Assembly (NCBI GenBank): GCA_937125225.1
Contig: CAKZLE010000032.1
Coordinates: 1 to 64,000, forward strand
From: an uncultured Spirochaetia bacterium
Lineage (GTDB): Bacteria > Spirochaetota > Spirochaetia > CAKZLE01
DNA length: 64,000 nt
Direction: 5' to 3'
In this document: positions 2,543-47,796 of the stretch, in pieces
How positions within the stretch are numbered: the stretch's first letter is position 1
How the letters are laid out: the number at the start of each line of letters is the position of its first letter
The notes under the pieces: generated by a model
Databases searched by the model: none
Told to the model about the DNA's origin: nothing
What the model saw: only the letters and a program-made list of their open reading frames with translations
Translations under genes and position numbers: made by a program

Positions 2543-2594
2543 ACGGACTGGTAACCTATCATTCTTATGGTAATACCGGTCCGTTTGTATTTTT
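2543..2594 (+). terminator. Rho-independent terminator of the SDR-isomerase-aldolase operon
   Basis: ACGGACTGGTA (2543-2553) pairs with TACCGGTCCGT (2574-2584) with one G-T wobble, and TTGTATTTTT follows. It sits 20 bases after the aldolase stop. Confidence 0.75.
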
Positions 2595-2625
2595 AGACAT
2601 TATGAGATTGGCTCACTATAAAAAT

Positions 2626-2659
2626 AGAAAAAGATAGAATACGTATTCTATCTTTTTCT
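2626..2659. promoter_or_regulatory. 34-bp perfect palindrome, operator 1 (probable LacI-family site)
   Basis: Each arm is 17 bases with no central gap, and the centre is GAATACGTATTC. The palindrome overlaps the expected -35 region of a promoter whose -10 hexamer TATAAT is at 2671-2676. A central CpG is usual for LacI-family operators, and a LacI-type regulator is encoded two genes downstream. The flanking A/T runs could also let it act as a weak hairpin terminator, but the second copy of the core 53 bp away favours an operator. Confidence 0.7.
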
Positions 2660-2670
2660 GAGATCTGTGC

Positions 2671-2676
2671 TATAAT
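2671..2676 (+). promoter_or_regulatory. -10 hexamer TATAAT for the NTF2-like pair
   Basis: A perfect TATAAT lies between the two palindromes. The -35 region is poor (about 2648-2653) and is buried in operator 1, so repression by occlusion is likely. Confidence 0.55.
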
Positions 2677-2686
2677 GCATACAAGT

Positions 2687-2704
2687 TGAGAATACGTATT
2701 CTCA
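2687..2704. promoter_or_regulatory. 18-bp perfect palindrome, operator 2 (probable LacI-family site)
   Basis: TGAGAATACGTATTCTCA is fully symmetric and shares the 12-bp core GAATACGTATTC with operator 1. The centres are 53 bp apart, close to five helical turns, so both sites face the same side of the DNA. It lies just after the predicted transcription start and before the start codon at 2744. Confidence 0.7.
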
Positions 2705-2743: not shown

Positions 2744-3313
2744 ATGGATATAAAGCAAATGCTCGAAGAGCGAAAGCGATTCAATGATTACATTGATAAT
2801 TGTAAGTTCGAAACCCCTGAGGAAGTCGCAAGATTGTTCAAGGAATACACGAACTTGATCTGGGATAAAAAACTGGTAGGGTTGTGTTATGATTTCTATA
2901 CCGATGATATTGTGATACACCGAGAGGGTGGAGTGACCGCTATAGGCTATGAGGGGGTCATCGCTGCAACTTTGAGTTTTATGGCTTCATTCCCGAACCT
3001 TAAGTTTCAGTTTCTTGATATCTTCGCTGAAGGGAATCCTGAGGATGGATACCGATTTGGTCAGTCTCTCTACTATGTTGGTGAGAATAACGGATACAGC
3101 TCCTATGGTGAACCCACCGGGAAGACTATGTCTCCCGATGATAACCTCTGTCTTGGACTCTGTGAATGTCTGGTCAAGAAGGTTGAGGGAAGATGGAAGA
3201 TCGTGGAGGAGTGGCTCGTTCGAAGTGGTGATGCACTTGAAGAGATCATGACCAAAGATAAGACTGAAGAAGAATCTGTAGCAATCAGTGCAGAACTTGA
3301 AGTGGAGGCATAA
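2744..3313 (+). CDS. NTF2/SnoaL-like protein A of a tandem pair
   Basis: A 189-residue soluble protein whose size and pattern fit the SnoaL-like (NTF2-like cone) fold. It has an N-terminal helix pair, a YDFYTDDIVIHREGG strand, a GYEGV helix, an FPNLKFQFLDIFAEG strand and a terminal VEGRWKIVEEW strand. Some relatives are polyketide cyclases, dehydratases or isomerases; many only bind small ligands. The start at 2744 has a strong AAGGAGGAG site; the in-frame ATG at 2711 would precede that site. The gene directly follows two palindromic operators and is followed by a diverged paralog and the LacI regulator. A role in handling the LacI inducer or a related substrate is an inference. The acidic C-terminal 25 residues look disordered. 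Confidence 0.65.
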   Translation: MDIKQMLEERKRFNDYIDNCKFETPEEVARLFKEYTNLIWDKKLVGLCYDFYTDDIVIHREGGVTAIGYEGVIAATLSFMASFPNLKFQFLDIFAEGNPEDGYRFGQSLYYVGENNGYSSYGEPTGKTMSPDDNLCLGLCECLVKKVEGRWKIVEEWLVRSGDALEEIMTKDKTEEESVAISAELEVEA

Positions 3314-3317
3314 GGTT

Positions 3318-3830
3318 ATGATGATATGTAATAAATACTCAGATGAGATCAAGGTACTCCGAAGGAGTATCGAAGCCAATACTTTCTCTGATATCGAAGC
3401 GGTCAGATCATTTATTCGGGACTATACCAAATTAGTCTATGACTTCAAGATGATCGGACTGATCTATGACTACTATGATAAGAATATCATCTATAGAAAA
3501 GAGAACAGATTGACGATCACAGGGGTCGAGAATCTAGTCTTTGATATCCTAGAACTTCTTGCAACCTTCCCTGATATGACTGTAGATCTAGAGAGCATCA
3601 TCGTCTCTGGTGATGTCGATAGTGGATACAAGGTCTGGAGACGGATGAGATACCATGGTACGAACACTAATCATACGAAGTTTGGTGCACCTACAAACAA
3701 GGAACTCGGTGACGGGTGTCTAGGACTCAGCATGATGTTCCTTAACAAGGTGGATGGCAGCTGGAAGGTAACCGAAGAACACAATCCAATCAGCTATTCC
3801 TACATCAGGGATGTCTGTACCGCTGAATAA
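3318..3830 (+). CDS. NTF2/SnoaL-like protein B of a tandem pair
   Basis: A 170-residue protein that aligns along its length with the preceding gene product: SFIRDYTKLVYDFKMIGLIYDYYDKNIIY here matches the corresponding helix-strand unit there, and both end in a DGSWKVTEEH or EGRWKIVEEW strand. The pair therefore arose by tandem duplication and then diverged strongly. The start at 3318 lies four bases after the stop of protein A with a GGAGG site inside the end of that gene, so the two are coupled and may form a heteromer, as NTF2-like proteins often dimerise. No catalytic dyad can be assigned. The function is unknown. Confidence 0.62.
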   Translation: MMICNKYSDEIKVLRRSIEANTFSDIEAVRSFIRDYTKLVYDFKMIGLIYDYYDKNIIYRKENRLTITGVENLVFDILELLATFPDMTVDLESIIVSGDVDSGYKVWRRMRYHGTNTNHTKFGAPTNKELGDGCLGLSMMFLNKVDGSWKVTEEHNPISYSYIRDVCTAE

Positions 3831-3839
3831 TCAATAGTA

Positions 3840-3863
3840 CTGCGAGAGAATCATCTCTCGCAG
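3840..3863. terminator. Hairpin between NTF2-like pair and lacI-type gene
   Basis: CTGCGAGAG (3840-3848) and CTCTCGCAG (3855-3863) form a 9-bp stem with a 6-base loop. The following GATATTCTTCT is only moderately T-rich, so it may be a weak terminator or a processing signal that lowers regulator expression. Confidence 0.5.
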
Positions 3864-3895: not shown

Positions 3896-4927
3896 ATGAG
3901 CAGTGAAGAGGACCAGAGACCACTAAAACGAATCACCTCAATCGATGTAGCCAAGCGGGCAGGCGTCTCCCAGTCCACGGTATCCCGTGCACTGAACCCT
4001 AATAGTAAGCTCTCTCCTGCTCTGAGGGAGAAGGTTCTGTCCTCCGCGAAGGAACTCAACTACCGTCCCAATGCTATAGCGAGGGGGATGTCTTCTCGTA
4101 ATACGCATATCATCGGGCTTACCATTAGTGATACGGTCAGTTCTTACTACTACAAACTCCTGAAACTCTTTACGAAGAAGATGCATGAAGCTGGATTACA
4201 GTTGATGCTTTTCAACACTTCTGAACATGCAGATATGGACAGAGTGCTCGACCGACTCATTGAGTACCGGGTGGATTCTCTCATTGTCGAGGGGGTCGCG
4301 GTCTCGAAGGATTTCATAGGCAAGTGCGCAGAACAGGAGATTCCGGTCATCCTCTTCGGGAGGAATATTCCTGATGTCAAAGCCCATACGATCTGCCTTG
4401 ATGATGTTGCCTGTGGACGAAAGGTCGCACGTCTTCTACATCAGACGTATGCAGAGAGTTATGCTTTTATTACTGCTAAAGAGGACAAAGACTCTAGTCG
4501 TAATAGGATGACTGGGTTCTCAGATTACCTGAGTGAACAGGGAATTCCCTCTCCTCAGGTGGAAGGAGCCGGCTTCTCCTATGAAGAAGGATATGCTGCT
4601 GCGATCAGGCTGCTGACCGGAGAGAATCCTCCTGATGCTATCTGTTGTGTGACTGATATCATCGCATTAGGAGTCATGGATGCTGCACGTCATAAGCTAG
4701 GCCTGAAAATCCCGGAAGATCTTTCTGTTATAGGATTCGATAATATAGACGAAGGGAAGATGGATGCTTTTTCCCTTACAACTGTCAGTCAACCAATAGA
4801 GGCCATGGTCGATGCTTCGATCGAACTGCTAAAAGCATGGCAGAGAAATACTCCTACAGAATATGATCTGCAACTCTTCGAAGGGGGACTTGTCCTGAGG
4901 GACTCCGTGAGAACCCTGAAAAACTAA
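3896..4927 (+). CDS. LacI-family transcriptional regulator
   Basis: A 343-residue repressor or activator. Residues 17-64 form the LacI helix-turn-helix (SIDVAKRAGVSQSTVSRAL) and hinge (NYRPNAIARGM). Residues about 70-335 form a periplasmic-binding-protein-like effector domain ending in the usual GFDNIDEGKMD and TTVSQP segments. The gene follows the NTF2-like pair in the same direction. Palindromes with a GAATACGTATTC core, which carry the central CpG usual for LacI operators, lie before that pair; related sites lie before the cupin operon (23152) and the Liv operon (11454). The effector is probably a sugar or sugar acid handled by the neighbouring enzymes (inference). No strong ribosome site precedes this start, which suggests low expression. 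Confidence 0.9.
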   Translation: MSSEEDQRPLKRITSIDVAKRAGVSQSTVSRALNPNSKLSPALREKVLSSAKELNYRPNAIARGMSSRNTHIIGLTISDTVSSYYYKLLKLFTKKMHEAGLQLMLFNTSEHADMDRVLDRLIEYRVDSLIVEGVAVSKDFIGKCAEQEIPVILFGRNIPDVKAHTICLDDVACGRKVARLLHQTYAESYAFITAKEDKDSSRNRMTGFSDYLSEQGIPSPQVEGAGFSYEEGYAAAIRLLTGENPPDAICCVTDIIALGVMDAARHKLGLKIPEDLSVIGFDNIDEGKMDAFSLTTVSQPIEAMVDASIELLKAWQRNTPTEYDLQLFEGGLVLRDSVRTLKN

Positions 4928-6207: not shown

Positions 6208-7032
6208 ATGAAAAGAAATATCATAATAATCGCTGTAATACTTATCTTGTCGATAGCGACTACGAGTTGTTGGCTCCTTCCTGATACTACCTTCACAATC
6301 ACCTTTGATGAGAATAGTGGATATGGGACGATGGAAGATCAGACTTTTCAGGGAGATGGTAGCGTGACTCTCGAAATGAATACCTTTAGTCATCAGGTAA
6401 ATACATTCGTCAGCTGGAATACTATGGCGAATGGGACAGGAATCTCATATACAGATGGGCAGACGATCACTCCTGGACCTGTAGATCTGACCCTCTATGC
6501 GATTTGGTCAGAGAATCTCACCAATAATGGCCACTTGATCTATCATAGTTTCACTACCGATAATGTGATCGATCTTAGAGATGGCGAAATAGCTTTTGGC
6601 CATTTTATCACGATAGATTTTGTGAACGGTGCTATCCTGTTCGATCAGAGTGCTGATGAGACTCTTGTTCAATTCTATCAAGAGGATAATCATGTTGAGG
6701 TATTCGGTTATTTACGACTGTATCTTTCAGATAATGTGAAGTCCATAGAAGCTGCGAGTGGAGAGTTGCAGCATATCGCAGGTAATACCATGATCGATGC
6801 AACTACCTCCTGGGTTGGAAATAATGGTATTGGTGATATCAGTGGATTCAATAACTGGGGTGATGAGAGCAATGTCTTTATCCCAATAAAAATGAAGATC
6901 AACTCTTCAGCGATCTACTACTATGGTTATATTGAGGTCTCTTTTGTTGATGATCCGGGTCTTCTCACGATTCATTCGATCGCCTATCGAGATGATGGTT
7001 CATCCCTGGTTGCAGGAGAGCAACCTGAATAA
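6208..7032 (+). CDS. Surface lipoprotein with one InlB-type (Flg_new) repeat
   Basis: A 274-residue secreted protein. The start at 6208 follows AAAGGAG; residues 1-20 are a signal peptide ending in a lipobox-like LSIATTSC, so the mature protein would begin with lipidated Cys. Directly after it is one Listeria-Bacteroides/InlB B-repeat of about 70 residues, from FTITFDENSG to LTLYAIW, with the expected VSWNTMANGTGISYTDG core. The remaining 170 residues form beta-rich sequence of no recognised family. Such repeats are common on extracellular proteins and can mediate adhesion. The gene stands alone with its own promoter and converges on the GH4 gene. Confidence 0.75.
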   Translation: MKRNIIIIAVILILSIATTSCWLLPDTTFTITFDENSGYGTMEDQTFQGDGSVTLEMNTFSHQVNTFVSWNTMANGTGISYTDGQTITPGPVDLTLYAIWSENLTNNGHLIYHSFTTDNVIDLRDGEIAFGHFITIDFVNGAILFDQSADETLVQFYQEDNHVEVFGYLRLYLSDNVKSIEAASGELQHIAGNTMIDATTSWVGNNGIGDISGFNNWGDESNVFIPIKMKINSSAIYYYGYIEVSFVDDPGLLTIHSIAYRDDGSSLVAGEQPE

Positions 7033-47109: not shown

Positions 47110-47796
47110 ATGTTTTTACGAATAGAGAGTCTTAATATCCTGAAGATGGACAAACGTTATATAGGCCGCCTGTTTCTATTAGTATGCTTGATACTTCCCC
47201 TAGCTATGGCCGATACGATAATCACGACTCATTACATCTCGATCATAGCTATCACTGCGCTTCTTAGCCTCCTTTTTGCAGTACATCTTTTCTATGTCTC
47301 TGTAAGAGCTGAATATAGCCAATATGTATCCTTCAGACCTACGAAAGCTGAATATGTCTCTTTAGTTCATGACATCCTCTATCATGACGAGTTCATGAGA
47401 TTACAGGAGTACTTTCACCATTCAGGGCATATCTACGACCATGTCAAGCGAGTCTCATATATCGCCTACAGTATCACGAAGATCTTGAGTCTCGATTATC
47501 TCGCAGCTGCTCGTGGGGGATTACTCCATGACTTCTTTCTGTACGACTGGAGGGAGAAGAAGAGATCTGACGAATCAAGATCATCACACGGGAGGGAACA
47601 TCCTCATATTGCACTTGAGAATGCAGAAAGATACTTCTCAGTCTCTAATCGAGAGGCAGATATCATCGTAAATCATATGTTCCCCAAGACTATTCGCCCT
47701 CCCAAGTATATCGAGGGTGTCGTTGTCTCTTTGAGCGACAAGATAGCTGCAGTATTCGAATACTGTAGAAGACCTTTCATCACTGCTAGCACCTAA
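47110..47796 (+). CDS. Membrane-anchored HD-domain hydrolase
   Basis: A 228-residue protein with two membrane helices near residues 20-65 and then a cytosolic HD domain. It shows HSGHIYDHVKRVS, GLLHDFFLYDW (the HD pair), SHGREHP and IVNHMFP histidines, and the distal Asp in VVSLSDKIAA. This resembles small HD phosphohydrolases of the type annotated as HDIG proteins, probably acting on a nucleotide. The first ATG (47110) lies very close to the predicted transcription start; the in-frame ATG at 47146 (MDKRYIGR) could be the true start and leaves a 40-base leader. It overlaps the converging nucleotidase gene by four bases. Confidence 0.75.
   Translation: MFLRIESLNILKMDKRYIGRLFLLVCLILPLAMADTIITTHYISIIAITALLSLLFAVHLFYVSVRAEYSQYVSFRPTKAEYVSLVHDILYHDEFMRLQEYFHHSGHIYDHVKRVSYIAYSITKILSLDYLAAARGGLLHDFFLYDWREKKRSDESRSSHGREHPHIALENAERYFSVSNREADIIVNHMFPKTIRPPKYIEGVVVSLSDKIAAVFEYCRRPFITAST

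Follow-up and report, generated by a model that had tools for sequence, protein, structure and literature searches.

Two palindromes around the promoter of an NTF2-like gene pair are probable operators of the neighbouring LacI-family protein in an uncultured Spirochaetia bacterium

Layout of the locus

The 64-kb stretch of DNA that we analysed (the window) carries, near its start, a promoter region followed by three genes on the plus strand, two of which encode NTF2/SnoaL-like proteins and the third of which, lacI, begins 65 bp past the second and encodes a LacI-family protein (Table 1). The operon upstream, with genes for an SDR protein, a FucI-like protein and an HpcH/HpaI aldolase, ends at position 2522. 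The strong terminator-like hairpin after it suggests that the block of palindrome, promoter and palindrome beyond it is a unit of its own. The first NTF2-like protein most likely starts at ATG 2744, after GGAGGAG, rather than at 2711, because this ribosome-binding site and ATG are kept in G001, the sole other genome of the same family among those that we searched. The hairpin between the second NTF2-like gene and lacI has a counterpart of other sequence in the same intergenic place in G001 (locus L047, about 6345-6400, minus strand), and it is possible that this hairpin is a partial terminator or a processing site that sets the level of the repressor.

Table 1 Features of the promoter region and the genes that follow it (positions in the window)
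Feature	Position	Strand	Remarks
Predicted intrinsic terminator	2543..2595	+	-21.9 kcal/mol, z -5.0; T-rich tract after the hairpin
Putative operator O1	2626..2659	.	34-bp perfect palindrome AGAAAAAGATAGAATACGTATTCTATCTTTTTCT; core GAATACGTATTC at 2637-2648
Predicted extended -10, TGCTATAAT	2668..2676	+	between O1 and O2; inferred from sequence
Putative operator O2	2687..2704	.	18-bp perfect palindrome TGAGAATACGTATTCTCA; core GAATACGTATTC at 2690-2701
NTF2/SnoaL-like protein 1 (189 aa)	2744..3313	+	first gene of the putatively regulated operon; 87% identity to G001 counterpart
NTF2/SnoaL-like protein 2 (170 aa)	3318..3830	+	30% identity to protein 1
Hairpin between NTF2-like gene 2 and lacI	3840..3863	+	-17.7 kcal/mol, z -5.1
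LacI-family repressor (343 aa)	3896..4927	+	recognition helix VSQSTVSR, hinge ARGM

The NTF2/SnoaL-like pair is rare, with relatives in 4 of 395 genomes of the class. A search of the PDB with the first protein returned no sequence relative, its AlphaFold model, for which the alignment had two sequences, was of low quality (pLDDT 55.8) and gave weak NTF2- or cystatin-like matches in Foldseek (E >0.001), and NCBIfam gave no name to any of the target proteins.

Two perfect palindromes with a common core

The preliminary description had reported a 34-bp and an 18-bp perfect palindrome that share a core and lie around a TATAAT hexamer with their centres 53 bp apart, and all of these positions were confirmed: the core starts at 2637 in O1 and at 2690 in O2, with TATAAT at 2671-2676 in between. 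No other perfect palindrome of at least 18 bp occurs in the window, for which independent base use predicts 0.27 palindromes of that length and 5e-6 of at least 34 bp per 64 kb; the longest in 60 windows simulated with an order-2 Markov model was 26 bp. A further perfect palindrome of 16 bp, CAGTATTCGAATACTG, lies at 47750-47765. The figure of 0.004 exact 12-bp matches per 64 kb, given in the same description, is correct, and the scan of the whole genome for the core that it proposed, which we carried out by pattern searches, found GAATACGTATTC twice in 3.43 Mb, at O1 and O2 only, where about 0.2 copies would be expected.

The marks of LacI-family operators, an even palindrome of 16-22 bp with a central CG, are present in O2 and in the core of O1, and even, CG-centred palindromes are used by 1173 of 1303 LacI-type factors (PMC4052901). 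At 34 bp, O1 exceeds the usual range of lengths. The base at -7 is A or G, where the family usually has T, and this counts against reading them as operators.

Alternatively, O1 might serve chiefly as a hairpin in RNA, such as a back-up or antisense terminator of the upstream operon, and contain the core by chance. Its predicted fold is strong (-17 kcal/mol, z -6.2), its minus strand has a U tract and a terminator-like score, and its outer arms, AGAAAAAGATA, are longer than any LacI footprint. However, the stem has few G-C pairs, the upstream operon is already closed by the terminator-like hairpin at 2543-2595, and the core is found again in O2 and in both G001 sites; O1 of G001 is a perfect palindrome over 12 bp only. 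We regard a hairpin that contains the core by chance as highly unlikely.

Conservation of the promoter in a second genome

G001 has the same gene order, and its LacI is 73% identical to that of the window. Its promoter retains both cores intact, 54 bp apart, and an extended -10 as well, TGTTATACT; the ribosome-binding site is likewise retained. In both genomes the O1 core stands 22 bp from the -10, and the interval between the -10 and the O2 core measures 13 or 14 bp. Over the 34 bases that run from the O1 core to just beyond the -10, 20 are identical and 14 differ. The long arms are reversed, such that in G001 it is O2 that forms the longer palindrome, of 26 bp. As the arms are not conserved, what both genomes keep is the core and its placement at the promoter. 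The sites had earlier been said to go with LacI 3896-4927 and to control the NTF2-like pair, and the presence of sites, promoter, genes and LacI together in G001 supports that assignment.

The LacI-family protein and its relatives

LacI 3896-4927 consists of an N-terminal LacI helix-turn-helix domain (PF00356, E 4e-16) and a C-terminal periplasmic-binding-like sensor domain (PF13377, E 3e-26), and its best PDB matches include structures of CcpA, PurR and the lac repressor. Residues 11-314 align to lac repressor 2-306, and the 29 residues that remain end near lac position 335. The tetramerisation helix of the lac repressor occupies approximately positions 340-357; by alignment, LacI 3896-4927 lacks such a C-terminal helix.

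We compared 92 LacI relatives, excluding the LacI proteins of the window and of G001. The motif GNATACGTATNC was found within 1.5 kb of lacI for 15 of the 22 relatives with a VSQ[SA][ST]VSR helix and for 0 of the 70 with other helices (Fisher p 2.6e-12, which is a guide only, as the rows are related, with several from Planococcus for example, and the helix class was defined post hoc). The 24 helix-bearing LacI proteins form one well-supported clade that joins this genome's class and Bacillota and includes Planococcus, Pullulanibacillus and clostridial MAGs; upstream of lacI in Pullulanibacillus camelliae lie two TGAATACGTATTCA sites, 84 bp apart. The motif is missing nearby in seven of the 24 clade members, six of which are a subclade of their own (L048, L050, L051, L152, L155 and L156), and when we sought a shared motif in this subclade, GATTACGTAATC-like words turned up near just two members, L048 and L156, which is not enough to establish one. 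The preliminary description held that the motif standing before unrelated genes in species without this LacI would speak against the assignment; in genomes without a close LacI relative, the core matches that we inspected (in G005, Planococcus C5 and others) were all chance matches inside ORFs.

The base at -5 of the half-site varies with residue 27 of the protein, which aligns with lac repressor position 18. In half-sites that go with Ser27 it was A in 24, C in 11 and T in 1 (A or C in 35 of 36), and in those that go with Ala27 it was T in 36, A in 6 and C in 2 (T in 36 of 44); as covariation this amounts to about three against three separate lineages. That the motif tracks the recognition helix across two phyla, and the -5 base the specificity residue, further supports the assignment of the sites to this LacI. 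These data suggest a candidate specificity rule of one residue and one base, which is directly testable and is to us the most interesting part of the analysis, and they assign a definite operator word to an uncharacterised LacI subfamily that occurs in Bacillota and in this genome's class.

Operators of the subfamily are sometimes perfect or near-perfect palindromes of 26-36 bp (L049 139-172, L157 12621-12656 and L047 7525-7550), far longer than a LacI footprint, and stand close upstream of gene starts. Such extended palindromes would form RNA hairpins in a 5' leader or between genes. Elsewhere, at G067:C185 (L148 9072-11860), the GNATACGTATNC motif is absent; there, three tandem NTF2-like genes stand beside a histidinol-dehydrogenase-like gene, with carbon-nitrogen-hydrolase-like and transporter-like genes and a LacI of a different helix.

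Proposed mode of repression

O1 adjoins and overlaps the -35 region, in which the window has a weak hexamer. With a transcription start about 7 bp past the -10, near position 2683, as predicted from the sequence, the centre of O1 would lie near -41 and that of O2 near +12. We think it very probable that O1 and O2 are the operators of LacI 3896-4927, whose dimers would flank the promoter, block RNA polymerase and silence the NTF2-like pair together with lacI; binding by this protein, the direction of control, the effector and autoregulation are what we infer from the arrangement. One dimer would occupy each palindrome, its recognition helices contacting the GAATAC half-sites and its hinge helices inserting in the minor groove at the central CG. 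The dimer at O1 would abut the -35 side of the extended -10 promoter and that at O2 would span about +6 to +18, and the two would exclude the polymerase by double steric occlusion. The NTF2-like pair would then be off, as would lacI, which would be reached by read-through, until an effector released the repressor; this effector would probably be a metabolite of the sugar or sugar-acid type. Gene order makes autoregulation of lacI likely, perhaps damped by the hairpin that precedes it; among studied LacI-type factors 72% are autoregulated, and tandem sites stand before about 20% of LacI-type operons (PMC4052901).

The preliminary description had also favoured cooperative or looping repression. 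In looping, a LacI tetramer would hold O1 and O2 together across five helical turns and enclose the promoter in a small loop. The spacings of 53 and 54 bp do correspond to 5.05 and 5.14 turns at 10.5 bp per turn. However, the protein ends before the tetramerisation helix, a spacing of 53 bp is shorter than any in the classic lac series studied in vivo, which starts at 57.5 bp (PMC1762422), and site pairs at related loci are 35, 36, 48, 84 and 110 bp apart, with no common helical phase. On these grounds the looping claim did not hold up, and we judge it very improbable; promoter geometry suffices to account for a spacing of about 53 bp. Two dimers might instead cooperate on the same face of the DNA without forming a tetramer, either by touching or via bent DNA. 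The near-integral phase in both genomes would fit this, and a precedent exists in the cooperative LacI-type pairs inferred at 22 and 32 bp (PMC4052901), but 53 bp is far above those distances, a phase seen in two genomes is too little to indicate a constraint, and other clade members deviate from it. Cooperation of this kind therefore seems to us rather unlikely.

Occlusion by LacI dimers at O1 and O2, the reading that we prefer, would place the locus close to the local repressors of the LacI family (Ravcheev et al. 2014, PMC4052901; for instance CcpA, PurR and RbsR), with which it shares the domain make-up of the protein, an even palindrome that has CG at its centre and G at -6, and an operator upstream of the neighbouring operon with tandem sites and a single-locus regulon. 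In contrast to those systems, the genes controlled here would encode SnoaL/NTF2-like proteins and not plain sugar enzymes, and one operator has grown to a 34-bp perfect palindrome. As in the lac operon of Escherichia coli, whose O1 lies at about +11 and is joined by auxiliary operators, the main operator would lie near +12 and a second one upstream, but the spacing is 53 bp here and at least 92 bp there, the upstream site here is at the -35 region and the repressor here has no tetramerisation helix. A search of 5.39 million papers for the core word gave no match, and the half-site GAATAC was not matched to a named regulon; searching for ATACGTAT together with LacI gave no recognisable operator among the matches listed. 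We regard O1, O2 and this LacI as a well-supported and previously undescribed instance of a common switch, which as a switch is ordinary.

A paralogous LacI and the adjoining catabolic cluster

The same genome encodes a LacI paralog, 33-34% identical to LacI 3896-4927, on contig C4 (168670-169671), with operators GTATACGTATAC at C4:165304, 169739 and 171971 and a hybrid, GAATACGTATAC, at 163335. C4 ends within a creatininase-like gene, before which lie genes for a TRAP transporter (DctM, DctP), a class II aldolase, an FGGY kinase, the paralog, a transaldolase-like protein, an SGL lactonase and Ldh_2. In G075 and G001 the order continues with creatininase, SDR, FucI-like and aldolase genes, matching the start of the window, which indicates that C4 and the window contig are almost certainly adjacent, with about 1 kb missing. 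Positions 1-2522 of the window form the end of a sugar or sugar-acid cluster with a TRAP transporter, and C4:163000-173384 (L053) carries its head. The analysis also connects the rare NTF2/SnoaL-like pair with sugar or sugar-acid catabolism. The paralog, with its GTATACGTATAC operators, probably controls this cluster, which almost certainly adjoins the locus. Models for sulfoquinovose isomerase and sulfolactate dehydrogenase match cluster proteins far below the cut-off, and we therefore name no pathway.

The C4 paralog with its TGTATACGTATACA operators has the same operator architecture as LacI 3896-4927 with O1 and O2, except for the base at -5 (A here, T in the paralog) and bases outside the core; the pair of Ser27 and hinge ARGM here is replaced by Ala27 and ARSL, and the paralog has several operators across the TRAP-transporter and sugar-catabolic cluster. 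Another regulator, such as this paralog, might be the true ligand of O1 and O2, as its GTATACGTATAC operators differ at -5 alone, hybrid half-sites exist and its cluster probably adjoins the locus. Yet the paralog's cluster lacks GAATACGTATTC, and the -5 base of O1 and O2 suits Ser27 of LacI 3896-4927, not the paralog's Ala27. In G001, moreover, the NTF2-LacI unit is on contig C79 and the catabolic cluster on C31, and the operators of the unit are still kept, which points to this LacI, not the paralog, as the ligand. We consider a different regulator at O1 and O2 quite improbable.

The two LacI paralogs probably act next to each other, on operators that differ by one base per half-site. More tentatively, and with considerable doubt, we suggest that these repressors, at neighbouring parts of one catabolic locus, are insulated by that base alone, -5 A or T being read by Ser27 or Ala27, and that some of the operators are long palindromes that double as transcript hairpins (34 bp here, 26 bp in G001 and 34 bp in G030). 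As for the history of the cluster, positions 1-2155 of the window are 85% identical in nucleotide sequence to L157 (G075:C113), which comes from another family, and 72% identical to G001, of the same family, and this difference suggests horizontal transfer of the catabolic cluster.
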